Positions 13,765 through 31,722 of a stretch of DNA of 45,430 bases are shown here, in pieces. The notes under the pieces are model-generated. The model was not told the origin of the DNA. It was given only the letters and a program-made list of their open reading frames with translations, and searched no databases. This stretch comes from Candidatus Eisenbacteria bacterium (GTDB taxonomy: Bacteria > Eisenbacteria > RBG-16-71-46 > JASEGR01). The DNA lies in NCBI GenBank assembly GCA_030017955.1, contig JASEGR010000014.1:1-45430 (forward strand), given 5' to 3'. Positions within the stretch are counted from its first letter, which is position 1. Every line of letters starts with the position of its first letter. The position numbers were made by a program, and so were the translations under genes.

Positions 13765-14952
13765 TTGTCTCAGAAGAAGCCGACAAACATAGTAATCTTG
13801 GGTTCTACCGGTTCGGTGGGACGAGCCTCGCTCGATGTAGTGAAGAGGCTTGGTGGGAGATTTTCCGTGATGGGGCTTTCCACAAGATGCCGTGTCGAGC
13901 TTCTTTCCGAGCAGGTCGAAGAATTCAGCCCCCGATTCGTGGCCATCCAGGATGAGAAAGCAGCTAGTGCATTCAAGGAGAATGCCCGAATACAGGGTGT
14001 GGAGGTCCTGAGCGGCAGTCAGGGGGTCGCTGAGCTTGCCGCGTTGGAGGAAGCAGACACCGTTGTCAATTCAGTAGTTGGGGCGGCAGGTCTTGTTCCC
14101 ACGTTGAGGGCGCTGGAAGCAGGCAAGAGGGTGGCTCTTGCAAATAAGGAGAGCCTTGTGGTTGGGGGACACCTGGTGATGAAAGCTGCACGGGACTCGG
14201 GCGGTGAGATCATCCCTGTTGATTCCGAGCACAGTTCGCTGTTTCAGTGCCTGGAAGGTGTGGAGAGAGACGAGATAGGGAGGATTTTTCTGACTGCGTC
14301 TGGTGGGCCGCTGCTCTCGGCTGACAAAAGAGCGCTGAGAAATTCCACGCCGGACAAGGTTCTTGCTCATCCGACCTGGAAGATGGGAAAGAGGATTACA
14401 GTGGATTCCGCCACGCTCATAAACAAAGGGTTCGAGGTGGTCGAGGCAGGGTGGCTCTTCGACATTGAACTCCCGAGAATATCTATTTTGATTCACCCGC
14501 AGTCAATCGTGCACGGGCTTGTGGAATTGATTGACGGGAATGTCATCGCCGGTCTGACCACTCCGGACATGAGAATACCAATTCAGCGGGCCCTGTGTTA
14601 TCCTGAAAGAGTTGGCACAGGTCTCCCCATTCTAGCTCTCGCAGAAGTCGGCGAGCTCAGCTTCTCTGAGCCGGATCTCGAAAGGTTTCCATGCCTGGGC
14701 CTTGCATTGAATGCGGCAGAGCGAGGCGGAACGGCTCCCGCTGCCTTGAATGCGGCAGATGAAATTCTGGTGGATGCTTTTGTTGATAACCGGATCTCAT
14801 TTGGAGACATAGCGGAAGTTCTTGCCGCCGTTCTCAAAGATCACAAGGACGTGGAGAATCCGGACCTTGAGACAGTTCTGAAGGTTGATGGTGATGTGAA
14901 GAGGCAAACCAGAGACCTCGTTCTGGAAGTCGAAGGGAGAAGTCGGCGTTGA
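13765..14952 (+). CDS. dxr: 1-deoxy-D-xylulose-5-phosphate reductoisomerase
   Basis: Dxr forms 2-C-methyl-D-erythritol 4-phosphate from DXP using NADPH, the committed step of the MEP isoprenoid pathway. The 395 residues have the dinucleotide-binding ILGSTGSVGRASLDV, LANKESLVVGG, PVDSEHSSLFQCL, LTASGGPL and the HPTWKMGKRITVDSATLINKG region that builds the metal and substrate site. The TTG at 13765 follows GGAAAGGA by six bases. It overlaps rseP by four bases. Confidence 0.97.
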   Translation: MSQKKPTNIVILGSTGSVGRASLDVVKRLGGRFSVMGLSTRCRVELLSEQVEEFSPRFVAIQDEKAASAFKENARIQGVEVLSGSQGVAELAALEEADTVVNSVVGAAGLVPTLRALEAGKRVALANKESLVVGGHLVMKAARDSGGEIIPVDSEHSSLFQCLEGVERDEIGRIFLTASGGPLLSADKRALRNSTPDKVLAHPTWKMGKRITVDSATLINKGFEVVEAGWLFDIELPRISILIHPQSIVHGLVELIDGNVIAGLTTPDMRIPIQRALCYPERVGTGLPILALAEVGELSFSEPDLERFPCLGLALNAAERGGTAPAALNAADEILVDAFVDNRISFGDIAEVLAAVLKDHKDVENPDLETVLKVDGDVKRQTRDLVLEVEGRSRR

Positions 14953-16307
14953 TCTACACCATACTGCTTGGCGGAATAGCTCTCGGGATTCTTGTAATAG
15001 TCCATGAATTCGGCCACTTTGTCGCCAGCAAGTTGTTCAAGGTGAGAGTGGAGAAATTCTCCGTAGGTTTCGGCCCCCGGATTCTCGGGAAGAAGATTGG
15101 CGACACAGAATACAAGATCTCGATTGTGCCGCTCGGCGGATACGTAAAACTGTCGGGTCAGACTGTCGAGGAGCTTTCGAGGCCGCCCGAACCGTATGAT
15201 TTCATATCCAAGCCGTGGTGGAACCGGGCGCTTATTGCACTTGGCGGACCCTTGATGAATTTTGTTTTCGCCATAGTTCTCGGAGTCACCATCTTTCTGG
15301 TCGGCATGAAGTTTCAGGATTTCAGCGCAGTGGCAGGGAGGGTGCTGGAGAACTCACTCCCGTACACTCTGGGCATAAGGAGCGGAGACAGGATAAAATC
15401 CGTTAACGGAAGGAGCGTATCTACCTGGAAAGACTTCAACCAGGAACTTGATCTCAACGAAAAGAACAGGGTGGACCCCAGCATCATCGTCGAGAGAGAG
15501 GGAAACGAGATAGGTTTCTCCTGGAAGGCGGGTCTCATTGACTCATTCTTCAGCGGCATATCTCCTGCCATAGAGCCGGTTGTCGGTTCCATCGTTCCCG
15601 GTATGCCTGCCTACCTGGCGGGAATGAGGATCGGAGACAGAATCATTTCGGTGGACTCGCAGCCGATCAAGGACTGGTACGACATACAGCTGCATATTCA
15701 CTCCAAACCGGACACTACTATCAGTATCCGCGCTCTGAGAGATGGAAGGACCCTGTCATTTTCCGTTAAGACTGTGAGCCAGGACATTCCCGGCGCCGGA
15801 AGAATAGGGCTCATAGGAATTTCGCTTCCGGACAGCCTTACCTACGTCGTAAGGACCGGATTCCTGAAGTCTGTGAAGAGGGGAGCCGAGGCGGCGGTGG
15901 CGATGGTGGTGAGCACGTACAAGGCATTCTGGGTCGTTGTGACCCATCCCTATTCCTTCAGAGAGTCGGTTGCAGGTCCTATTGCAATTGTCCAAATTAC
16001 GGCCGACCAGGCAAAGAAGGGGATTGACAGTTACCTTGTCTTTGTGATGGCGGTGAGCATAGCTCTTATGGTCTTCAACCTGCTGCCTATCCCGGTCCTC
16101 GACGGCGGGCATATACTCTTTTCTTGTTATGAAGGCATTTCAGGCAGGCCTCTTTCTCCGGGTAAGCAAAACTTGCTGCAAAAGGCCGGCATCGCGTTCA
16201 TCATCGCGCTCATGGTGCTTGCTCTGGTCAACGATACTGCTAAGATCATACAGAGAAGGCATGCAGTTACACAGGAGGCGCAGGAGCATCCCGGAGCGGA
16301 CAGATGA
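14949..16307 (+). CDS. rseP: RIP metalloprotease RseP (site-2 protease)
   Basis: An inner-membrane zinc protease that cuts transmembrane segments of anti-sigma factors and other substrates in regulated intramembrane proteolysis. His19-Glu20-x-x-His23 in VHEFGHF lies in the first helix, two PDZ domains occupy about residues 115-285, and the second zinc-ligand motif PIPVLDGGH lies in a C-terminal membrane segment. The length of 452 fits the two-PDZ class. The TTG start overlaps the dxr stop as TTGA. No rseA-like anti-sigma gene is visible in the window. Confidence 0.96.
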   Translation: MIYTILLGGIALGILVIVHEFGHFVASKLFKVRVEKFSVGFGPRILGKKIGDTEYKISIVPLGGYVKLSGQTVEELSRPPEPYDFISKPWWNRALIALGGPLMNFVFAIVLGVTIFLVGMKFQDFSAVAGRVLENSLPYTLGIRSGDRIKSVNGRSVSTWKDFNQELDLNEKNRVDPSIIVEREGNEIGFSWKAGLIDSFFSGISPAIEPVVGSIVPGMPAYLAGMRIGDRIISVDSQPIKDWYDIQLHIHSKPDTTISIRALRDGRTLSFSVKTVSQDIPGAGRIGLIGISLPDSLTYVVRTGFLKSVKRGAEAAVAMVVSTYKAFWVVVTHPYSFRESVAGPIAIVQITADQAKKGIDSYLVFVMAVSIALMVFNLLPIPVLDGGHILFSCYEGISGRPLSPGKQNLLQKAGIAFIIALMVLALVNDTAKIIQRRHAVTQEAQEHPGADR

Positions 16308-16361
16308 GTTCCTTCCTGGTTGTCTTCTTCGCAGTCCTCCGCGCTTAGAGGTGACAAGGCA

Positions 16362-18254
16362 TTGGATGTCCGCAGTTTTCTCAGGGTCCTATTAGCCGCC
16401 GCTCTTCTTTCGTGCCCGGCCACACTTTACTCGCAGCTTGAGGAACTTGGCGAAGCAGTAAGGATTGAGAAGATTGAAATCAAAGGCAATTCCTCTTTTT
16501 CTTCGAAAAGACTCCGCTCGTTGATGAAAACGAAAGGGAAATCTCTCTTCAGACCGTTTGGAAAATCGTTCCTCAGGCGTGACTTCCTGAGGTCGGATGC
16601 GCAGTCGATCGTGTCCTTCTACAAGACCAACGGGTTTCTGGATGCCAAAGTGGTCAAGCAGGAAGTTATCTACAATGAGAAAGGAAATGGCGCAACGGTT
16701 GTGTTCGAGATAGATGAGGGTCAGAGATTCTTCGTCGGGTCTGTGGCCCTGAGCGGAGTCCAGGCCATTGAAGAGCGAAGGGTCTGGAAGCTTGTTGACC
16801 TCAAGGTCGGCCAGCCCCTGAACCTGTCCAAGATCGAGAACATAAGGAACAAGATTCTTTCTCTTTATGGGGACGAAGGATATATGAATGCGGCAGCAGG
16901 GGTCCTGTGGGAGAGGAGAGGAGAGCTGGCCGATATTGCTTTCGACGTGAAAGAAGGAAAGAGGGTCTTCGTCGGGGCAGTCTCGGTTGAGGGCAATACC
17001 TCAGTGTCAGAGAAGCATGTTCTCCGCGAGATGCTGCTGAAGAAGGGAGATATTCTATCGAGATCGCTTCTCTTTCGCAGCCAGCAGAGGATATATGATC
17101 TGGGATATTTCTCCGATGTTCAATTCATCACAGAAAGGAAAGACAGCCTGCGCAGCGAGATGGACCTTGTGATAAAGGTCAAAGAAAAGAAGATGAGATG
17201 GACAGCAGCGGCAGTGGGCTACGGGTCGACCGAGCTCATAAATTTGACAGCAGAGTGGGGAAACAACAGGGTTCTGGGGACCGGCGTGAGATTTGTCGGA
17301 ACATCCCGGGTCGCCTTTGATCTTGAACACGTGCTTCCTCGTCCCGAAGTCAGACTGGACTACACCAGGATGGATGCAGGCGGTGAGACCTCCTGGACGT
17401 TTGGAAGGCGGGTGGCTTCCAGGGCTGGAGTCTATTTTGAGGATATCGAGAGGCAGGATGTTGCCAGGAAGACCACAGGGTTCCTCCTCTCTGAACGGTA
17501 CGACTTTGCTAATAAGGTCAGGACCATTCTTGCCTATGATCAGAGATGGGTCAATGCCACAGACTCAACTGCTCTCAAGTCCTACGTGACGAACAGCTTG
17601 AACCTGTCGGTGGAGAGAGACATGCGGAATGACCTGTTCGATCCGGAGCGGGGCTCGTATCACCAGATTGTCGAAGAATTCGCAGGAGGTGTTTTTGGAG
17701 GAGACAACAGCTTCGAGAAGGTCACGGCCACCGGCTGCTGGTACAAGACAGTCTTTAAGAGAGTGGTGCTTGCAGGCAGAGTGAAAGCAGGGGTGGTTGT
17801 CCCGTTCGGCAAGAAGGGGCCAAGCACCGCCGCATATCCCGACCTCTACCGTGTGCCGTACGAAAACAGGTACACACTCGGCGGCGCAACCACGGTGAGA
17901 GGCTATAGGGAAAGAGAAATAGGAGCTGAGGGCACGCAGGCGGAGTCGGAAGGCGGACTTGCGCTTCTTATGGCAAACGCTGAAATAAGATTCCCGTTGA
18001 TTGGCAGGTTGGGCGGGGCACTGTTTCTTGACAGCGGAAATGTGTGGCCGGACTTGAAGCAGATTGGTTGGAGCGACTTCGTTCCTCTAAGGGAGAAAAG
18101 CGCCATTACGATAGCCGACTACAGATATTCCGCCGGCCTCGGCCTGAGACTGAGAACCCCGGTGGGGCCTATGAGGGTTGACTACGGCAGGAAGCTCAAG
18201 CCGATAGACGGGCACACATACCAGCTGCATGCTAGCCTCGGACAGGCGTTCTAG
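16362..18254 (+). CDS. Omp85-family outer membrane assembly protein (BamA/TamA-like)
   Basis: This protein inserts or exports proteins at the outer membrane. It has a signal peptide (FLRVLLAAALLSCPA), roughly three POTRA domains (about residues 30-270; units begin near RIEKIEIKGNSSF, RFFVGSVALSGV and RVFVGAVSVEGN) and a C-terminal barrel of about 350 residues with the VRGYRE signature and a terminal Phe. At 630 residues it is shorter than classic five-POTRA BamA, and three POTRAs plus a TamB-like neighbour resemble TamA. Its place after rseP, however, is where bamA usually sits. TTG at 16362 is chosen from AGAGGTGA seven bases upstream and the signal peptide; TTG at 16320 is possible. Confidence 0.9.
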   Translation: MDVRSFLRVLLAAALLSCPATLYSQLEELGEAVRIEKIEIKGNSSFSSKRLRSLMKTKGKSLFRPFGKSFLRRDFLRSDAQSIVSFYKTNGFLDAKVVKQEVIYNEKGNGATVVFEIDEGQRFFVGSVALSGVQAIEERRVWKLVDLKVGQPLNLSKIENIRNKILSLYGDEGYMNAAAGVLWERRGELADIAFDVKEGKRVFVGAVSVEGNTSVSEKHVLREMLLKKGDILSRSLLFRSQQRIYDLGYFSDVQFITERKDSLRSEMDLVIKVKEKKMRWTAAAVGYGSTELINLTAEWGNNRVLGTGVRFVGTSRVAFDLEHVLPRPEVRLDYTRMDAGGETSWTFGRRVASRAGVYFEDIERQDVARKTTGFLLSERYDFANKVRTILAYDQRWVNATDSTALKSYVTNSLNLSVERDMRNDLFDPERGSYHQIVEEFAGGVFGGDNSFEKVTATGCWYKTVFKRVVLAGRVKAGVVVPFGKKGPSTAAYPDLYRVPYENRYTLGGATTVRGYREREIGAEGTQAESEGGLALLMANAEIRFPLIGRLGGALFLDSGNVWPDLKQIGWSDFVPLREKSAITIADYRYSAGLGLRLRTPVGPMRVDYGRKLKPIDGHTYQLHASLGQAF

Positions 18255-18266
18255 CGGAAGGCCCGA

Positions 18267-21200
18267 ATGACTGAGAAACACATGGCAGATTCCAGAAACG
18301 AAAACGCTCCGGCGAAGAAAGGGTCAAGGAAGAAAATTCTTGGCGTCGTGCTTATCGCTGTGCTTGCCGTTTTCGTCTTTATCTCCGTGCTGGGCGCCAT
18401 ACTTGTGACGAGACCCGGGATCTTAACCCCAAGGCTTGTGGCGTTTCTAAATAGCAGCGTAATCGCGACCCCCGATGTCACTGTGGGCCTTTCAAACGTT
18501 TCCGTAAATGCGTTCAGCGGGTTATCCATCGAGAATTTCTCCCTTAAGTACAAAGTGGATGGCCGCTGGGTCGAGTTCATCAAAGCGCCGAGGGTGGTAG
18601 TGAAGTGCCAACTCTTCAGCCTTATCGGCAAGAATCCGAGGATAATCGGCGTTCTGGTTGAAGACCCGCAGGTTGTTTTCGGGAGAAACGGCAACGGGAA
18701 TATCGTTCTTCCGGTCCTCGGAAAGAAGAAAGGTGGAGACGGAAGCCTGAACGTAGCTACGATTGAACTCAAAGGAGCAAGAGTATTCATCGAGCCTGAG
18801 CTGCGAGATCCAATGCTTTCAAACCTGAGCGCGGTCGGATCCTACATTCAGAACGGAGACAAGAAAGGGGTTCTTGTAAAAAGCGGAAGTTTCGTCAGCA
18901 GAGGAAGGGCGGTGCATGGTGTCTCCGGGATTCTCGAGCAGGAAAGGGGCAGACTCGATCTTGGAAGGCTTTCTTTCGCAATAGGGAAATCACAGATTGC
19001 AATGAAGGGGAACTTGGCGAATGGAAAATTTGAAGCCCAGGCAGACTTGAAAGGACTTGAGCTTTCTGATGTGTGGGGCGCCTACTTCCGCAGCAAGTGC
19101 CCGGTTGAAGGAACGGTTGGCGGGGAGGTGAAAGCTTCCGGACAGGGAGGCGCAGCGACCATTCTTTTTTCCCTTTCTGGTGTCGTCCGGTCGACCGAGA
19201 TTCGGAAACTCGATGGCAAAGCCCTCTACGGAAAGGGGCTCCTCAGATTGGCGCATTTCTCTCTGCAGACAGGGGATGGAACCCTGATCGGCAATGGGAA
19301 TCTTGAACTGTCGAAGAGGCACGGTTTCTCAGGCGTCGTTGACCTGTTATCGGTGGGAGTTGGGACAGGCTTTCGTCTCGCAGGGCTGGGCGGAGCACCG
19401 ACAGGCGAAATCTCCGGCAGAGTTTCATTCAAGGGCGAGTTTCCTTCGGGAGGGAATCCGCGGTGTGCGGCACGTTTTGCACTCACGGAGGGATCGATCC
19501 AGGGAGTCCGGCTGGATTCAGGCCTTGCCAACGTGCGCTATGAAAATGAAAGAGCTGTTGTTGAGTCTCTGACAATCGGCGGGGAAGATGTTTCATTTGA
19601 TTGCTCAGGATCCGTCGGCAGAGGAGGAGAACTAAACTTTCCTTTTTCGGGAAAGATTGAGGGCCGGGCACTGGGCAAATTCTTCAAGAGGAAGGAGCAG
19701 GTAAACGGGCAGGTTGCGGTTTCGGGGAATCTTGCCGGGGACTTATCCTCGCCAAAATTGGAGATGGATGGAGAGTTTAAGGACTTGAGATGGGAGAAAG
19801 CAGAGGCAGAGAAAGGCCACTTCTCCGTGAGGGAGGCCTCCCTGGGTCGTGAACCGTCTTTTTGGTTGAAACTGGGACTCTCCGGATGCGGATTTCAGGG
19901 AAGAGACGTAGGCGACCTCCGGCTTGACTGTGCGTACAAAGAGAAACTGTTTCTGAGGGAGCTTGCGCTCATCCATGGAGACACTTCCTTAGCAGTATCA
20001 GGTGAGATCTCTATCCATGACGGCCTGGCCAAAGGTGTACTTACCGGAGGGTCGATCATAGTAGGAAAGAGCTCCTGGGCAGTGACTTCGCAGACGGAAT
20101 TCTCCGTCTCGAAACACGAATTTCATTCCGATGCTTTGGTCGCAGAATCAGAGGATGGGTCGATAACCGTATCATTCTCGGTAAACTTCGAGACGAAGGA
20201 GATGCTGGGTGATGTCGCCATAACAAACCTGAACCTGGCTCGACTCGTGCCCGAGAAGCTGGGGGCGAGTGCGGGCGTTCTGAATTCACGACTGTCCATC
20301 GCCGGAACGTATGATTTTCCGCAGGTGAACTGCCAGATAAGGCTTGACTCTGCGGAGATTGGAAAGCAGAGGTTCGAGCAGATCGCGGCCGACATTGCAT
20401 ATTCTTCCAAGGCAATTCAGTTCAAGAATTGCGAGTTCTATGGAGGCAGGAATAAGGCGGTGCTCTCTGGCTCGGTCTTCGTGCCGGTTTCATTTGGTGA
20501 CTTCTTCAGCAGCGTCGGGTGGAACAACATTCTCAAAGGAGACACGCGGTTTGATCTGAGTCTCTCTCTAGACGCGTTTGACCTGGAGGAGCTGGGCAAA
20601 GTCTCGGAGAAGCTCAAAGGTGCTCAGGGGCGTGGGGCTTTTTCACTTTCGATTCGCGGCACCCCCGGGAAACCCCAGTTTTCACTGAACACCGAGCTGA
20701 ATGACGTGATGGTGGCCGGTGTGATGTTTGGAAAGGTCTCTGCGAAAGCAGGTTATGAAGACGGGCTCTTGTCAATCGGTGAACTCACCATCACATCGGG
20801 TGGATCCGTGAGCAACCTGAACGGGGAGCTCCCCATAGAAATATCACTCACTGAGATGAAGACAAAATTCAGGGACAGGCCGATGGAGCTGGTTTTGAAG
20901 ATGCCGCAGAGCGATTTCAGAATGGCGTCACTGTTCCTGAGAGGCATCACTTCGACAAGTGGGAGGATGAGTGGGAATGTCGAGCTCAAAGGCACCCCTT
21001 ACTCGCCGGAAATATTCGGGGCCCTGGCCCTTGAATCTGGCACCATGAGGCTCAGGAATAGGGATGAGCTATTGAGAGACATAGAGGTTAGAGTGGTCTT
21101 CGAGAGAAAGTTGGTGAGAATCACTTCGTTTGTGGCAAAGGAAGGAAGACGGGGAATCTGTGAAGGATCTGGCGTCATCACGCTTGGCCACGGGTGGGCA

Positions 21201-22214
21201 GCCGACTATGACTTCAAAATCAAGATGACCAATTTCACCATAACCGACAATGAGAACTACGCTTCCAGGATTGATGCGGACCTGAAAATTGTCCCGGGCA
21301 AGTGGCCGGATGGCACAAAGAGCCCGCTTGTCACCGGTACTGCCACTCTCAGGCAGACCATAGTAAGAAAGGAGTTCAGCGGAATCGGCGAGGACAAGGG
21401 ACCGGATGAAGAGAGCTCCAAGGGGTGGCTTTACGATGTGACCTTCAATGTGCCTGGAAATTTCTGGATCAAGAATTCTGACGCCGACCTTGAGTTGAGC
21501 GGCGCCCTGAAAGCAAGGAACGGGACAAGAGGTCTTGTCTTACTTGGTTCCATGAAAATTGTGAGGGGTGAGTATCTCCTGATAGACAGCGAGTTCAAGA
21601 TTACCTCAGGGACGCTCGAGTTCACGGACGTTGAGAAAATCGACCCTGTGATGGACATAACTGCAGTTTCTAAGGTTGCAGGAGAAGACATCGCCCTGCA
21701 TGTCACCGGAAAGGCAAGCAAGCCTGTTCCTGAATTCTCCTCTGCCAAAGGCCGTTCGCAGTCGGAGATCATCGAGCTTCTTGCAGTGAGAAAATATTGG
21801 CTCGGCGAAGGGGCAAATTCCACGCCTGCAGAAAATGTCGATACTCTCAAAACGGTTGACGAGACGAACAGATTCTTTCTCGCGTATCCGGTGGGAAATT
21901 ATCTTCTTAAGAAACTGGAGAGACAGATAACGGGAAAGGTTGAATGGGTTGATGTTCTGGAGTTTTCGTCGAGCGGGGCTCGAGGTTTTCCGTCGGCCGG
22001 AGGCATGCAGGTTGGCGTTGGGAAGTATCTCACTCCAGAGCTTTACATGAAGTACAGCCAGGGACTCGCTGTCTTATCACAGCAGGACGTCCTTCTTGAG
22101 TATCGTGTGAGCAATCTTGTTTTTCTGAATGGAAGGGTTGCGAAGAAAAGGGTGTTGAAGGGTTCGGAAGAATATGAGTACAATCTGGATCTAAGGTTCA
22201 AGGTGGAGTATTGA
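18267..22214 (+). CDS. tamB: TamB-like AsmA/DUF490-type translocation and assembly protein
   Basis: A very long (1315 residues) envelope protein. Residues 1-23 are basic, a single membrane anchor follows (about 24-47), and the rest is repetitive beta-rich sequence with many short Gly-rich strands such as GNGNLELS, as expected of the hydrophobic-groove family that includes AsmA, TamB and YdbH. The C-terminal part (about residues 950-1315), with GSMKIVRGEYLLIDSEFKI and TSGTLEFT, matches the TamB/DUF490 region. The family bridges inner and outer membranes and is linked to lipid transport and barrel assembly. It starts 12 bases after the Omp85 gene with GGAAGG upstream, so the two form a TamA/TamB-type pair. 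Confidence 0.9.
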   Translation: MTEKHMADSRNENAPAKKGSRKKILGVVLIAVLAVFVFISVLGAILVTRPGILTPRLVAFLNSSVIATPDVTVGLSNVSVNAFSGLSIENFSLKYKVDGRWVEFIKAPRVVVKCQLFSLIGKNPRIIGVLVEDPQVVFGRNGNGNIVLPVLGKKKGGDGSLNVATIELKGARVFIEPELRDPMLSNLSAVGSYIQNGDKKGVLVKSGSFVSRGRAVHGVSGILEQERGRLDLGRLSFAIGKSQIAMKGNLANGKFEAQADLKGLELSDVWGAYFRSKCPVEGTVGGEVKASGQGGAATILFSLSGVVRSTEIRKLDGKALYGKGLLRLAHFSLQTGDGTLIGNGNLELSKRHGFSGVVDLLSVGVGTGFRLAGLGGAPTGEISGRVSFKGEFPSGGNPRCAARFALTEGSIQGVRLDSGLANVRYENERAVVESLTIGGEDVSFDCSGSVGRGGELNFPFSGKIEGRALGKFFKRKEQVNGQVAVSGNLAGDLSSPKLEMDGEFKDLRWEKAEAEKGHFSVREASLGREPSFWLKLGLSGCGFQGRDVGDLRLDCAYKEKLFLRELALIHGDTSLAVSGEISIHDGLAKGVLTGGSIIVGKSSWAVTSQTEFSVSKHEFHSDALVAESEDGSITVSFSVNFETKEMLGDVAITNLNLARLVPEKLGASAGVLNSRLSIAGTYDFPQVNCQIRLDSAEIGKQRFEQIAADIAYSSKAIQFKNCEFYGGRNKAVLSGSVFVPVSFGDFFSSVGWNNILKGDTRFDLSLSLDAFDLEELGKVSEKLKGAQGRGAFSLSIRGTPGKPQFSLNTELNDVMVAGVMFGKVSAKAGYEDGLLSIGELTITSGGSVSNLNGELPIEISLTEMKTKFRDRPMELVLKMPQSDFRMASLFLRGITSTSGRMSGNVELKGTPYSPEIFGALALESGTMRLRNRDELLRDIEVRVVFERKLVRITSFVAKEGRRGICEGSGVITLGHGWAADYDFKIKMTNFTITDNENYASRIDADLKIVPGKWPDGTKSPLVTGTATLRQTIVRKEFSGIGEDKGPDEESSKGWLYDVTFNVPGNFWIKNSDADLELSGALKARNGTRGLVLLGSMKIVRGEYLLIDSEFKITSGTLEFTDVEKIDPVMDITAVSKVAGEDIALHVTGKASKPVPEFSSAKGRSQSEIIELLAVRKYWLGEGANSTPAENVDTLKTVDETNRFFLAYPVGNYLLKKLERQITGKVEWVDVLEFSSSGARGFPSAGGMQVGVGKYLTPELYMKYSQGLAVLSQQDVLLEYRVSNLVFLNGRVAKKRVLKGSEEYEYNLDLRFKVEY

Positions 22215-22219
22215 TATCG

Positions 22220-22261
22220 CCTCACCTCAATCCTCTCCCCAAAGGGGAGAGGTTGGTGAGG
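22220..22261. repeat. Two-step palindromic hairpin, REP-like
   Basis: CCTCACC (22220-22226) pairs with GGTGAGG (22255-22261), and inside it CCTCTCCCC (22232-22240) pairs with GGGGAGAGG (22244-22252) around an AAA loop. The only unpaired bases between the two helices are a five-base bulge and a TT. There is no T-tract. It sits in the intergenic space between the tamB-like gene and the protease-barrel gene. Interspersed palindromes of this form are common, but no second copy is in the window. Confidence 0.75.
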
Positions 22262-22308
22262 GGGCATGTAATGCAGCGTGAGGTTTCAGAAAAGAGGAGC
22301 GTGAGCAG

Positions 22309-25290
22309 GTGAGATTAAGCAAGGTTTGCTTCTCTGTCCTTCTCATAAGTCTGTGTTATTCGAGTGCCTTTGCGCAGGGTTATGGGAAAAACAAGGTCCA
22401 GTACAGGCATTTTGACTGGTCATCTATCTCCTCAACACATTTTGACGTGTACTTCTATGAAGAAGCCGAATCCCTCGCATACTTTGCAGTGGAGGTCGCG
22501 GAGAGGGCCTCATCCAAACTCAGCCTCGACCTCGGGCACACGCTGACAAAGAAGGTCCCGATCATCGTGTACGCGTCCCACAATGATTTCGAACAGACGA
22601 ACGTGATTACCGAACTCATTGAGGAAGGTGTCGGAGGGTTCACAGAGATCTTCAAGAACAGGGTTGTGGTTCCTTTTACCGGTTCATACGAGGACTTCAG
22701 ACATGTCCTGGTGCACGAGCTCACGCACGCATATATGTTTGACGCACTCTACGGTGACGTTCTGGAATCCTGGCTCACCGGACAGTATTTCTTCCAGCTC
22801 CCATTGTGGTTCGCGGAGGGGCTGGCGGAGTACGAGTCCCTTGGGTGGGACAGTGAGTCCGACATGTTCATGAGGGACGCGACAATCTCCGGATATCTGG
22901 TTCCTCTCGATATGATAAGCGGAGGGTATCTTGCATACAAGGAGGGCCAGTCAGCCATACGGTATATCGTCGAGAGGCATGGCCGGGAGAAGCTTGCTGA
23001 AATGATCGCCTCTGCAAGGGGCATGAGGAGCATGGACAGAGTCTTCGACAGAGCGTTCGGCATGAGCCAGTCCAAGTTCAGCGACGAGTGGATAAAATAT
23101 CTCAAGAAGGAATACTGGCCCGAGGTGTCGAAGCGGGAAGATCCGGAGAAGTTCGCCAGGAGAGTGACGGATCACGAGAGGGACAACTCCTACATCAATG
23201 CCGACCCTGCGATTTCGCCTGACGGCGAGAGGATTGCAGTTCTCTCCGACAGGAGGCAATTCACCGATGTTTACCTGATTTCCGCAATAGACGGCAAGAT
23301 GCTGAAGAGACTAGTTCGTGGCGAAAGATCGTCACAATTCGAGAGTGTTCCGCTTTTCAAGCGTTCTCTTGCCTGGTCGGCAGACGGGAAGAAGCTTGCT
23401 GTCGTGGCGAAGAGCAAAGGAAAAGATGTTCTCCATCTGATAGACGGAGTCAGCGGGAGAGTCAAATCGACTCTGAAGCCGCCGCTTGAGGGAATCTCCT
23501 CTCCTTCGTGGTCGCCTGACGGGGAGAAGATTGTGATTTCCGGATTGAAGGATGGGAAGGCAGACCTCTATCTGTCAGACACCGGTTCGGGCAAGACCAG
23601 GCGTCTCACGAACGACGTGTACGACGATATAGACGCAGTCTGGACACGAGACGGGAACAAGATCTTTTTCGCATCAGATCGCGGCTCCCCTGTGGCTGCG
23701 AGTCAAATTATGAATGGAGTGGAGAAGGGCTTCCGGTATTCCGTTTTTTCAATCGATGTGGAGACGGAGGATATAAAGGAAGTCTTCTCTCACCCCGGAG
23801 GGGCTGTTTCGCTCGCTCTGTCTCCTGACGGATCGAAACTGGCTTTCATCTCCTCCGGCGGCGGGACGAGGAACGTCTTCTTGTACGACCTGGATAAGTC
23901 AACGGTCAGTCAGCTTACCAATGTTCTTGGCGGAGTCTTCTCGATTAGCTGGTCTCTGGAAAATGACAGGATGGCCTTTTCAATCTTCACCGGTGGGGGC
24001 TGGGACGTATTCGTTGCTCAGGAAGTTGCGTCAATGACTCCGGTCTCGGTTGCATCGTCCGGTGAGCCGAAGGCTGAGGAGAAGAAGAACGAAGAGGAAG
24101 TTTCACGTCCCAGGAACGTGGTGATACTTCCGCTGTCTGAAAAGATTGAAAAGGCGCTTGCGGAGGGGGTGCAAAGCAGTCTTCCCGAGAGTACCGAGAC
24201 CGACACGGCGTATGTCGAAGAGCCCAAGCCGTACAAGTTCAAGCTGACTGCGGACGGGATAAGCGGAGGGTTTCAATACAACTCTGCGGTCGGGTTCGGC
24301 GGCTCGACGGAACTCTCTCTAAGCGACATGTTTGGAAACCACAGGATCTACCTCGCCTCTGACTTGTTCTCATCAATCGATCAGACAGACATCATGTTTG
24401 TCTATTACTACCTTGCAAAGCGCCTTGATATGGGAATAGGCGCCTTCCACTATAAGAACTACTACTACTCCAGCATTACTCTTCTGGGAGAACAGTTTTC
24501 AAGAGCGAGGTTTTTCTCCGAGAGGACTTATGGTTATGTTCTTCTTGGGAGCTATCCTTTTGGAAAATTCTCCAGACTTGACCTTGACCTCACGCATCTG
24601 ACAATAGAAAGAGAGTTCCTTCCGGATTATCTGGTGTATCCCGTACCGCAGGATAATCCCAAGCAGGTAATACGCATACTGTCACCCAGCATAAGTCTTG
24701 TTAAAGACACGTCCCTTTGGGGACAACTTGGGCCGACGAACGGAGCGAGGTGGTGGGTGGCCTATTCACCATCAGTGCGTCTGACTGAGAACTACCGCTC
24801 GTTCAGGAAAGTGTCATTTGATCTCAGAAAGTATGTCGGCTTCAGTAGAGGCTACAGCCTTGCAATGCGTGTGGGAGGATCGATTGGAGGAGGCGCGCAG
24901 CCTGAGACTCTTCTTATGGGAGGCGTCTATACAATCAGAGGATACGGAGATTTCGAATTCAGGGGGACCAAGGCAACATTCGTGAATGCCGAGCTCAGGT
25001 ATCCGTTCATAAGTCATCTCGGCATTGTGTGGCCCATCCCAATCTCAATAAGAAATATCGGCGGGATCGTCTTTTTCGATGCGGGGGCTGCCTGGTACGA
25101 CAACAGAGAGTTCAAGGCCTTCACACATTCTCAAGGGGGCCACAGACTGGATTCCGTGAAAGCGGCATTCGGCACCGGTCTTCATACTTCCCTTTCATTC
25201 CTCATTCTCAAGGTCGATTTTGCCTGGCCCACAGATCTTGACCATGTCGGAAAGTCGCACATTCACTTCAGTCTTGGCGCAGAGTACTAA
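22309..25290 (+). CDS. Secreted zinc metalloprotease-TolB propeller-Omp85 barrel fusion
   Basis: A 993-residue secreted protein with three recognisable parts. A signal peptide ends near residue 22 (SSAFAQ). A gluzincin-type (peptidase MA-like) domain has His136-Glu137-x-x-His140 in VHELTHAY and a likely third ligand Glu170 in WFAEGLAEY. Residues about 295-580 contain at least six PD40/TolB-like units such as AISPDGERIAVLS, SWSPDGEKIVIS and LALSPDGSKLAF. After a charged linker (about 585-630), the last 350 residues look like an Omp85-type barrel with the IRGYGD signature and a terminal aromatic residue. The family role is unknown; it may be a surface protease or an envelope assembly factor, given its TamA/TamB-like neighbours. 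GTG at 22309 follows GAGGAG by nine bases. Confidence 0.88.
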   Translation: MRLSKVCFSVLLISLCYSSAFAQGYGKNKVQYRHFDWSSISSTHFDVYFYEEAESLAYFAVEVAERASSKLSLDLGHTLTKKVPIIVYASHNDFEQTNVITELIEEGVGGFTEIFKNRVVVPFTGSYEDFRHVLVHELTHAYMFDALYGDVLESWLTGQYFFQLPLWFAEGLAEYESLGWDSESDMFMRDATISGYLVPLDMISGGYLAYKEGQSAIRYIVERHGREKLAEMIASARGMRSMDRVFDRAFGMSQSKFSDEWIKYLKKEYWPEVSKREDPEKFARRVTDHERDNSYINADPAISPDGERIAVLSDRRQFTDVYLISAIDGKMLKRLVRGERSSQFESVPLFKRSLAWSADGKKLAVVAKSKGKDVLHLIDGVSGRVKSTLKPPLEGISSPSWSPDGEKIVISGLKDGKADLYLSDTGSGKTRRLTNDVYDDIDAVWTRDGNKIFFASDRGSPVAASQIMNGVEKGFRYSVFSIDVETEDIKEVFSHPGGAVSLALSPDGSKLAFISSGGGTRNVFLYDLDKSTVSQLTNVLGGVFSISWSLENDRMAFSIFTGGGWDVFVAQEVASMTPVSVASSGEPKAEEKKNEEEVSRPRNVVILPLSEKIEKALAEGVQSSLPESTETDTAYVEEPKPYKFKLTADGISGGFQYNSAVGFGGSTELSLSDMFGNHRIYLASDLFSSIDQTDIMFVYYYLAKRLDMGIGAFHYKNYYYSSITLLGEQFSRARFFSERTYGYVLLGSYPFGKFSRLDLDLTHLTIEREFLPDYLVYPVPQDNPKQVIRILSPSISLVKDTSLWGQLGPTNGARWWVAYSPSVRLTENYRSFRKVSFDLRKYVGFSRGYSLAMRVGGSIGGGAQPETLLMGGVYTIRGYGDFEFRGTKATFVNAELRYPFISHLGIVWPIPISIRNIGGIVFFDAGAAWYDNREFKAFTHSQGGHRLDSVKAAFGTGLHTSLSFLILKVDFAWPTDLDHVGKSHIHFSLGAEY

Positions 25291-25292
25291 GA

Positions 25293-27218
25293 ATGGAGTT
25301 CAGGTTAAGCCCCTCGCAGCTTGAGGCAGTGACGTACAATCAGGGGCCTCTTCTCGTGCTGGCGGGCGCCGGTTCGGGGAAAACGAGCGTACTTGCGGCA
25401 AGAGCAGCCCATCTCGTCCACCAACTCTCCGTTGCTCCATCTGAGATTCTTGCTTTCACGTTCACGAGAAAAGCAGCGCGTGAAATGTTGGAACGGATAT
25501 CCTCTTCTCTTGGAGAAAAGATGGGTGACATGTGGATCGGCACCTTTCACTCAATCTGCCTTCGAATCCTGAGGGCCCATGCATCAAGAATTGGCCTCAG
25601 ACCCAATTTTGTTGTCTATGACCGGAAGGATAGCTTTTCGGTTCTGGACGAGATCATCTCTAACCTCGGTCTCCCGTCAAAGGTGTACAGTCCTCAGGTC
25701 GTTGGGGACAGGATAAGCTCGGCAAAGAACGCCATTGTCTCTCATGAGGAATACCTGAGAATCGCATCTACCCAGTATGAGAAAGATATTGCAGCCATAT
25801 ACAGGGCATATGACAAAGCACTTCTTGCGAGAAATGCTCTCGATTTCGATGATATCCTGCTTGCGACCGTTTCACTTTTCGATCAGGTTCCAGCCGTAAA
25901 GGACGATTATGCGCAGCGCTTCAAGCATGTCCTCGTTGATGAATACCAGGATACGAACTGCATTCAGTTTGAGTTGATCCGGAAGCTTTCGCACATCCAC
26001 AGGAATGTCTGTGCGGTAGGTGATGACGACCAGTCCATTTTCGGATGGAGAGGTGCTGAGCTCGGAAATATTCTGTCTTTTGAAGAGAAGTTTCCCGGTG
26101 CGAAAGTGGTCAGACTCGAGGAGAATTTCCGGTCAAGCCGGAAGATAGTCCTGGCAGCGAAAGAAGTGATACGCAACAACAGCAAAAGAAAAGGCAAGTC
26201 CATGTGGACTAAGAATGAAGAAGGGGAGCCGGTTTCGCTCTTCATAGTGAATGATGGAGACCAGGAGGCAGAATGCATTGCTGGAAAGGTCCGGGACGAA
26301 TGGTCCAGGCACAGAAGCTTCGGCCAGATATCAATTCTCTACAGAACCAACGCCCAATCCAGGGCGATTGAGAATGCGCTCTTCAAGAGCAGGATACCCT
26401 ATGAAATAGTTGCCGGGCTCTCCTTCTACGAAAGAAAAGAAGTGAAGGACCTCATTTCATATCTGAGAATCATCGCCAACCCGCTTGATGACGTAAGCCT
26501 TCTAAGGGTATTGAATGTCCCGCAGAGAGGCATCGGAAAGACAACTATTCAGAAGCTGAAGGAGTTTTCCAAGGAGAAGAATATTCTGCTCTTTGAAGCC
26601 CTGAGGCAGGTTCGCTCTGTTGATGGCATTGGAGAGAAAGCCAAAAAGGCAATCGGGTCCTTCGTCGGTCTGGTTGACGGCCTCGCTGCACACGGCAACG
26701 AAGGTGTCTGCGGCCTCATGAAAGCCGTGGTCGAGAGTACCGGTTATCTTGAGTATGTTTCGAAAGAGGGGGAGGAGAGGCTTGAGAACGTCGAAGAGCT
26801 CTTAAGGGCGGCTGAGAAATGGGACCAAGATAGCGAGACGCGCGATCTGATCTTGTTTCTCCAGGAGCTTTCGATTATGTCTGATGTCGATACATGGGAG
26901 GAAAGTAGTGACAGAGTGAGCCTGATGACTGTACATTGTGCGAAAGGGCTTGAATTCTCGGTCGTTTTTATCGCCGGAGTCGAAGAGGGCATCTTCCCGC
27001 ATGCTTCCTCTCTTCTTGAAAAGCATGAACTCGAGGAGGAGAGAAGGCTTTTTCACGTTGCGCTGACGAGAGCAAAAGAGAAAGTGTACCTTTTCTCAGC
27101 AGTGGGAAGGAAATGGACTAAGTCGGATGGAGTGATATCAAGATTCGCCCGGGAAATTCCGAAAGAGGTTCTCGTCGTTGGCGACTTGGTCGGTTACGCT
27201 TACAGAGGGAGATTCTAG
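25293..27218 (+). CDS. UvrD/PcrA/Rep-type superfamily 1 DNA helicase
   Basis: A 3'-5' helicase of DNA repair and replication restart. Motifs in order: Walker A GAGSGKT with Lys30, FTFTRKAAREM (Ia), VDEYQDTN (II), GDDDQSIFGWRGAE (III), LEENFRSS (IV), VSLMTVHCAKGLEF (V) and EEERRLFHVALTRAKEKVY (VI). At 641 residues it is shorter than the usual 720 or more and lacks most of the extended C-terminal tail, so I do not choose between PcrA, UvrD and Rep. It starts two bases after the previous stop and ends directly at gatC. Confidence 0.95.
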   Translation: MEFRLSPSQLEAVTYNQGPLLVLAGAGSGKTSVLAARAAHLVHQLSVAPSEILAFTFTRKAAREMLERISSSLGEKMGDMWIGTFHSICLRILRAHASRIGLRPNFVVYDRKDSFSVLDEIISNLGLPSKVYSPQVVGDRISSAKNAIVSHEEYLRIASTQYEKDIAAIYRAYDKALLARNALDFDDILLATVSLFDQVPAVKDDYAQRFKHVLVDEYQDTNCIQFELIRKLSHIHRNVCAVGDDDQSIFGWRGAELGNILSFEEKFPGAKVVRLEENFRSSRKIVLAAKEVIRNNSKRKGKSMWTKNEEGEPVSLFIVNDGDQEAECIAGKVRDEWSRHRSFGQISILYRTNAQSRAIENALFKSRIPYEIVAGLSFYERKEVKDLISYLRIIANPLDDVSLLRVLNVPQRGIGKTTIQKLKEFSKEKNILLFEALRQVRSVDGIGEKAKKAIGSFVGLVDGLAAHGNEGVCGLMKAVVESTGYLEYVSKEGEERLENVEELLRAAEKWDQDSETRDLILFLQELSIMSDVDTWEESSDRVSLMTVHCAKGLEFSVVFIAGVEEGIFPHASSLLEKHELEEERRLFHVALTRAKEKVYLFSAVGRKWTKSDGVISRFAREIPKEVLVVGDLVGYAYRGRF

Positions 27219-30452: not shown

Positions 30453-31722
30453 ATGAAGTTCAAGTACGGCAAAGGAGTCAGAAATCTTGAGCTTCCGCCG
30501 GATGCGAAAATTGAGAAAATCGAACCAAGGCCGCTTGAGCCAATCCTTGACCTCGAGGAAGCACTCACTGCCTCACTTGATTCGCCAATAGGCAGCGCGC
30601 CTCTAAAGGATTTTGCTGCAGGCAAGAAGAAGCTCGCCATTATTGTCCCTGACAAGACCCGGTCTGCGGGAACAACCGAATTCATTCCGCTTCTCGTGAA
30701 GTATCTGAAAACGTGGGCAAAGAGCAAGATTGATATTTCTCTTCTTGTCGCAAACGGAATGCACGTGAAGGCAACCGATGATGAACTCGGCAGGCTCCTG
30801 ACCCCTGAGGTGAGAAAAGAATACAAGGTGGTTCAACATGACGCTGGCGACCTATCATCCATGGTTACGCTGGGGATGACGTCGCGCGGAACCCCCCGTC
30901 ACGGTGAGCAAAATAGCGGCGGACGCGGACGGACTCATACTCACCGGTTCAATAACCTTCCACTACTTTGCCGGATTCACTGGCGGAAGGAAGACCTTTC
31001 TTCCAGGCATTGCTTCGAAGGAGAGCATTGTCGCAAACCACAAACTAACCGTGAGCGGCGAGAAGGGAAGGGGCGGCACCTCGATGACCGGTATTTTGGA
31101 TGGGAATCCCGTGCACGAAGACATGATAGAAGCGGTAAGATTCGCGAAGCCGGCGTTTCTTGTAAACACAATAACGAACGCAGAAGGGCGCATTGCGCGG
31201 TTCTTCTGCGGCAACGTTGAGACGGCGCACAGAGATGGAAGCAAGAAGGTCATGGAGGTTTTCTCAACGAAGCTGAAAAGAAAAGCAGACATGGTGGTTG
31301 CAAGCTGCGGAGGATTTCCAAAAGACATGAACTTTATCCAGGCTCACAAGGCATTGCACCATGCGTTTCAGTCTGTCAAAGAGGGGGGCACGCTCGTCTT
31401 GGTGGCTGAATGCAGTGAAGGAATCGGTTCAGAGGCATTCCTCCCGTACTTTCAACTTGCGAACTCAGGTCAGATCAGGGAGTCGTTGATGCAGGAATAT
31501 ACTCTGAACGGCCACACTGCACTGGCAACTCTTGACAAAGCCGAAAGATGCAGCATTGTGCTTCTCTCGGAACTTGACAGCGATGTTGTCGCGTTAATGC
31601 GAATGGAATCTGCAAAAAGTCCTGAAGAAGTCATAGAGAAAGCGACTGCTTCACTCCCCGAAAAATCTCTGGTATATGTCATGCCAGAAGCAGCATTGAC
31701 GTTTGTTTCAAACGAGTCCTGA
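30453..31722 (+). pseudogene. larA: LarA-family (nickel-dependent lactate racemase-like) gene with a frameshift
   Basis: Two overlapping frames together encode a full-length LarA/DUF2088 protein of about 420 residues. Frame one (30453 to about 30897) covers the N-terminal half with PDKTRS and GMHVKATDDEL (His104), ending LGMTSRGTP. Frame two then continues VTVSKIAADADG and HYFAGFTGGRKTFLPG, where the family has its nickel-pincer His and Lys, and ends at 31722. Removing one C from the six-C run at 30892-30897 restores G-T-P-V-T-V-S. It is either a disabled gene or a sequencing error in a homopolymer. No larB, larC or larE cofactor genes are nearby; the true substrate may not be lactate. Confidence 0.88.

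Follow-up and report, generated by a model that had tools for sequence, protein, structure and literature searches.

A predicted zinc protease joined to a TolB-like propeller and an Omp85-type barrel in Candidatus Eisenbacteria and related bacteria

In the genome of Candidatus Eisenbacteria bacterium (GCA_030017955.1), the gene directly downstream of tamB was predicted to encode a zinc protease, a TolB-like propeller and an Omp85-type barrel in one secreted protein of 993 residues, which raises the question of whether such a fusion is genuine and what a protease would do in the place normally taken by POTRA domains. We analyzed the gene within a stretch of 45,430 nucleotides, positions 1 to 45,430 of contig JASEGR010000014.1 (hereafter the window), and compared it with homologous loci from other genomes (Table 1). 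The coordinates of the reading frame, the signal peptide, the HELTH, WFAEGLAEY and IRGY motifs and the terminal aromatic residue (a Tyr) were all correct in the original prediction, and relatives of the gene also encode these domains as one ORF.

Table 1. Positions in the window of the gene under study, its domains and motifs, and its nearest neighbours
Feature	Position	Strand	Basis
rseP	14949..16307	+	TIGR00054 over cut-off; conserved order
BamA-family Omp85 with POTRA domains, second copy, TamA-like by position	16320..18254	+	Profile matches
tamB	18267..22214	+	PF04357, E 8e-40
993-aa protease-propeller-Omp85 gene	22309..25290	+	Single uninterrupted frame; GTG start at 22309, stop ends at 25290
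Signal peptide, residues 1-22, signal peptidase I type site AFA/Q	22309..22374	+	Sequence, homologues
Mature N-terminal motif GYGKNKVQY, residues 24-32	22378..22404	+	Consensus in homologues FG[KQ]NKVQY
Peptidase MA (gluzincin) domain, residues 38-282	22420..23154	+	PF13485, structure, Foldseek
HELTH zinc site (H136, E137, H140), residues 136-140	22714..22728	+	Invariant in 67/67 homologues
WFAEGLAEY, residues 167-175, probable third zinc ligand E170	22807..22833	+	E170 invariant in 67/67
Six-bladed TolB-like beta-propeller, residues 297-571	23197..24021	+	PD40, phmmer, AlphaFold2, Foldseek
Variable, mostly disordered linker, residues 572-636	24022..24216	+	pLDDT, identity
16-stranded Omp85-type barrel, residues 637-993	24217..25287	+	PF01103, 16 strands, PDB profile match
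IRGY, the RGY/F loop signature of Omp85 barrels, residues 876-879	24934..24945	+	Conserved motif
UvrD/PcrA-type helicase, conserved downstream neighbour	25293..27218	+	Pfam, synteny

Three Pfam families match the protein, each above its curated cut-off: Peptidase_MA_2 at residues 64-266 (E 1e-11, 45.3 bits against a cut-off of 32.4), PD40 with four significant repeats (E 2e-25), and Omp85 (PF01103) at residues 806-991 (E 2e-11, 44.4 bits against a cut-off of 24). The Pfam matches include no POTRA family, and neither PF00149 nor PF01435 (M48/BepA) is among them. The NCBIfam models gave TolB-propeller and Omp85 similarity, both under the equivalog level; in particular, the TolB equivalog TIGR02800 was not reached (133 bits against a cut-off of 343), and this score, although phmmer aligned the propeller with TolB at E 3e-16, reflects propeller resemblance only, so that by its sequence the protein is not TolB. 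The PF13485 match above cut-off, the HExxH motif and the distal Glu together place the protease domain among the gluzincins.

The structural predictions agree with these assignments. A full-length AlphaFold2 model built from a 67-row alignment (mean pLDDT 85.9, pTM 0.86) contains a mostly helical protease domain at residues 38-282, propeller strands at 297-571 that we counted as six blades, a disordered segment with pLDDT below 50 at 585-633, and 16 long strands between 647 and 990; protease and propeller together make up its N-terminal part, and the high pTM suggests that the model places head and barrel relative to each other with some confidence, which stops short of a claimed interface. 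In Foldseek searches with this model TolB ranked first (E 2e-11), followed by BamA (9ccg, E 2e-10; 8qn4 and 4k3b), and a profile of the barrel matched BamA chains in the PDB at E 2e-7. The protease domain matched no PDB chain by sequence up to E 0.1, and its fold was therefore compared by structure: modelled alone (pLDDT 83.7), it was closest to the peptidase domains of M9 collagenases (7z5u, E 5e-5) and to M1 aminopeptidases, which are gluzincins. Thus, Pfam, AlphaFold2 and Foldseek agree on the predicted three-part fusion, in which the last 350 residues form a barrel and protease and propeller stand in for the POTRA domains. The RG[FY] loop motif is present in the barrel, with R877 nearly invariant and G878 invariant among homologues.

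The conservation of the putative active site was assessed in 67 homologues. H136, E137, H140, W167, E170 and G171 are invariant in all of them, and E174 is Glu in 66. The homologue scan was queried with a peptide from the W167-E174 region or with one from the FGxNKVQY region; since 44 of the 67 rows do not match the former and yet keep both HExxH and WxxEG, the conservation is not only an effect of recruitment. Mean identity to the window protein is 47% in the protease, the highest among the folded domains, 35% in the propeller and 33% in the barrel, and falls to 9% in the linker (residues 571-636). An invariant zinc site in the most conserved folded domain suggests that catalysis by the protease domain is under selection, in line with the original expectation of a zinc protease that is probably active. 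In flagellinolysin FliA(H), the third ligand is E262 and the basement residue Ala265 (PMC5595980); from the same spacing and from conservation, E170 would be expected to be the third ligand here and A173 the basement residue. Flagellinolysin and the M9 collagenase peptidase domains thus share with our protein the gluzincin fold, the HExxH motif, the distal Glu and an Ala three residues on, but they are secreted or flagellar, and the profile match is weak (NF033876, 23 bits against a cut-off of 205).

At the N-terminus, residues 24-37 have the minimum mean entropy of the whole protein, G26 and N28 being the same in all 67 homologues, and in the stretch 22375-22404, directly 3' of the signal peptidase site, the motif FG[KQ]NKVQY is near-invariant. 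An AxA/Q-like site stands just ahead of this motif in 70 of the 77 scorable homologues, which makes Gln their probable first mature residue; this resembles the Bacteroidetes 'Q-rule' for a first mature Gln, at least as outlined in PMC5837995, and most of the homologues are non-Bacteroidetes. Lipoprotein anchoring via C16 was ruled out by eye, as there is no lipobox (Leu precedes the Cys).

The fusion is neither an artefact nor a local event. When protease and barrel were searched separately, 85 of the 96 strong protease-domain genes carried the barrel in the same open frame, and most of the others either had a frameshift (G006, G031) or were short frames, as expected at contig ends, whose genomes held a barrel fragment at another site. 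The two domains are thus not routinely separate genes, and this one-frame fusion, together with the conserved loci, rules out an assembly chimera. Similarity to the protein was found in 58 of the 59 related genomes searched, being only weak in a few distant ones, and a scan of GTDB genomes yielded at least 558 confirmed relatives, the best matches listed coming from Zixibacteria, Eisenbacteria, KSB1, Marinimicrobia, Ignavibacteria, Calditrichota, Latescibacterota, Krumholzibacteria, Bacteroidota and WOR-3. The protease-propeller-barrel family is therefore old and widespread in FCB-group bacteria rather than a one-off fusion. A quick FastTree of 88 rows, which has long branches and was used for its broad pattern only, clustered by phylum far better than chance, with 14 changes where shuffling gave a mean of 29.5, and split at least two old copies in the class of the window genome, both of which this genome contains (G000:C14 and G000:C8). 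The second, diverged three-domain copy (G000:C8:42657-45400; L054 9043-11826) lies between dapB and a prolyl-tRNA-synthetase-like gene, and its closest company in the tree is copies that belong to other families of this class. Most genomes of the class have one to four protease-domain matches, often divergent copies.

The original prediction also noted that the gene follows a TamA/TamB-like pair. The order in the window is an AA_kinase gene (pyrH by position), frr, uppS, cdsA, dxr, rseP, a BamA-family Omp85 gene, tamB, the 993-aa gene, the UvrD/PcrA helicase gene, gatA and gatB. The upstream Omp85 scores as BamA (TIGR03303); as a separate five-POTRA BamA occurs at G000:C13, together with OmpH/Skp, LpxD, LpxC-FabZ and an LpxA-like gene, the Omp85 beside tamB represents a second, TamA-like copy. 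The order RseP, Omp85, TamB and the gene itself is kept in all eight fetched loci of families f6 and f8, and the helicase follows in these loci, apart from L043, whose fetched sequence goes no further than the gene. Directly upstream tamB genes were also found in L063, L065 and L112, the last being a Krumholzibacteria locus of similar order, and in another Eisenbacteria locus (L064) the gene follows rseP after a 640-base gap that holds neither bamA nor tamB. The neighbours rseP, bamA2 and tamB are absent from the loci that were fetched for four other families of this class (f3, f4, f7 and f9) and from those labelled Zixibacteria, KSB1, Ignavibacteria and Marinimicrobia; genes recurring near loci without tamB are RNase R-like, RadA-like, TGT, EPSP synthase and DsbD-like genes. 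As the commonest neighbours outside Eisenbacteria and Krumholzibacteria are unrelated housekeeping genes, the BAM/TAM link is not family-wide. The TamA/TamB-like pair upstream thus holds for the window and for the f6 and f8 loci, while tamB as a constant partner is ruled out; the link is real yet specific to an Eisenbacteria-like clade and Krumholzibacteria.

Between tamB and the gene, a strong hairpin was observed at 22220-22262 (CCTCACC..CTCTCCCC AAA GGGGAGAG..GGTGAGG; -35.3 kcal/mol over a 64-nt stretch, z -6.2), which also occurs in L035, L036, L148 and L149. Since its core recurs on several further contigs of this genome, the hairpin resembles a REP-type repeat more than an element specific to the locus.

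Comparison with known systems shows what is new here. In their classification of the Omp85/TpsB superfamily into ten subfamilies, Heinz and Lithgow (2014; PMC4104836) described in the main text a 'WD40-Omp85' kind, with a TolB-like propeller and no POTRA domain, which they likened to a BamA-BamB fusion, and a 'Metallo' kind, defined by PF00149, for which periplasmic proteolytic quality control was proposed. By its predicted domains, the 993-aa protein fits WD40-Omp85 as defined in that main text: both have a POTRA-less barrel and an N-terminal propeller structurally closest to TolB, although the main text names only WD40 repeats, whereas here a conserved gluzincin domain precedes the propeller. 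With the 'Metallo' kind the protein shares an enzyme-type metal domain ahead of the barrel and a proposed quality-control role in the periplasm, but that kind is defined by PF00149, by its Pfam name a calcineurin-like phosphoesterase, and not by an HExxH protease. As far as these texts go, the label 'metalloprotease-Omp85' for PF00149, which is repeated in PMC11116518, thus looks mistaken, and the present family appears to be the genuine metalloprotease-Omp85 and to have been filed under its propeller. The original prediction knew of no description of such a role, but the architecture itself is not undescribed: the definition of WD40-Omp85 dates from 2014, and its authors also put forward quality control in the periplasm as a task of protease-Omp85 fusions. 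The finding is therefore partly new: the WD40-Omp85 kind is known and uncharacterized, and the reading of a protease domain is absent from the 2014 main text. In the open-access literature we found no dedicated study of a protease-propeller-Omp85 protein.

Domains, folds, conservation of the catalytic site, near-universal fusion and gene neighbourhood together support, with a probability of about 0.5, the reading that the protein, a member of the Omp85 superfamily, is a zinc endopeptidase which is anchored in the outer membrane, faces the periplasm and acts on envelope proteins in transit; that the gene adjoins rseP even in the locus without bamA and tamB is counted in its favour. The signal peptide would export the protein, the 16-stranded barrel would be inserted in the outer membrane, and the variable linker would connect it to a head of protease and TolB-like propeller, which probably faces the periplasm in the position of the POTRA domains of BamA. 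The propeller would most likely dock a client or partner, and the protease would most likely cut unfolded or unprocessed envelope proteins that cross or stall at the outer membrane, comparable to the cutting of LptD and BamA by BepA in Escherichia coli; the protein would then work like BepA plus BamB, and the barrel may have some foldase activity of its own. We infer, as did the original prediction, a role in trimming, gating or quality control at the outer membrane.

BepA is a zinc peptidase that contacts LptD assembling on the BAM complex and degrades stalled LptD and impaired BamA (PMC8423444), and the propeller protein BamB binds to BamA (PMC13067283). Our protein would share with these two a zinc peptidase for proteins assembling at the outer membrane and a docking propeller, but BepA and BamB are separate proteins without a barrel, BepA is a non-homologous M48 peptidase with TPR, and the BamB propeller is of another family. 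Of the 59 genomes searched, 56 have M48 peptidases and 43 have PQQ_2, and a complementary distribution with BepA and BamB, or their replacement, was dropped on these counts; the protein is thus not a simple stand-in for BepA. The window genome (97% complete assembly) gave no M48 or PQQ_2 match, possibly through loss or an assembly gap, and it does contain BamD-like and DegP-like families. A more far-reaching version of the endopeptidase reading, which we consider rather unlikely, is that one polypeptide combines a zinc protease with a barrel of BamA type and a client-binding propeller like that of BamB; as a self-contained machine, this true metalloprotease-Omp85 would decide between insertion and destruction of outer-membrane proteins across FCB phyla.

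Among the other explanations, a secretion-coupled convertase, whose barrel would translocate dedicated substrates for trimming by the periplasmic protease in the manner of FhaC plus a processing protease, would suit a superfamily whose barrels include translocases, the putative place of the protease at the periplasmic mouth of the barrel, and copy numbers that would fit several clients. We regard it as improbable, as FhaC-type translocases dock their substrates through POTRA domains, of which the protein has none, and no conserved adjacent secreted partner is evident among the annotated neighbour clusters of around 80 homologues. An equally doubtful possibility is a TolB/Pal-like tether, in which the propeller would bind a Pal- or peptidoglycan-linked partner and the protease would process lipoproteins or wall proteins, coordinating outer membrane and wall: TolB is the nearest relative of the propeller in both sequence and structure, but this resemblance lies far under the equivalog cut-off and no Tol-Pal genes were recognized among the annotated neighbours.

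The probable side of the membrane on which the head lies argues against a third explanation. The N-terminal parts of Omp85 proteins are periplasmic. PlpD, a patatin-Omp85 protein, offers the closest parallel as a hydrolase fused to a 16-stranded barrel, although it is a dimer and carries a patatin-like lipase and one POTRA domain instead of a protease and a propeller; its enzyme head was shown to stay in the periplasm, which overturned the type Vd model of passage to the surface (PMC11116518), and by analogy supports the predicted periplasmic side of protease and propeller. That the head would be passed through the barrel to act as a surface or secreted digestive protease is thus very improbable, even though the best structural matches are to collagenases and aminopeptidases, among which are several secreted enzymes: like POTRA domains, the head lies N-terminal to the barrel, and cross-phylum conservation and the housekeeping-operon site in the Eisenbacteria-like clade disfavour a niche digestive enzyme. 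Just as little is to be said for a catalytically silent or non-peptidase zinc domain, structural or of other hydrolase type, serving as a chaperone in place of the POTRA domains, because, while HExxH enzymes of other chemistries exist and protease activity of this family is as yet a prediction, the general-base glutamate E137, needless in a silent domain, is invariant and the structural matches are peptidases.

The protein occurs in nearly every genome of the class and in hundreds of FCB-group genomes, and on the endopeptidase reading its strictly conserved active site would lie at the outer membrane. The corrected label provides a clear enzyme to test, which could reveal outer-membrane quality control outside proteobacteria.

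Elsewhere in the window, a larA-like lactate racemase gene (30453-31722) is divided into two overlapping frames (Lar_N at 1-144; the next ORF with 148-198 plus LarA_C), and it is one longer ORF in relatives; either a frameshift or a sequencing error would explain this. Other Omp85 genes were noted in the same genome: a 511-aa protein with a short PF01103 match, POTRA-less by eye, is encoded beside a sigma-54-type regulator (G000:C12; L149 5009-6544), and a 555-aa Omp85 protein (PF01103) directly follows a 1030-aa protein with a signal-peptide-like start (G000:C22; L148 6596-11355), the two being a possible partner pair.
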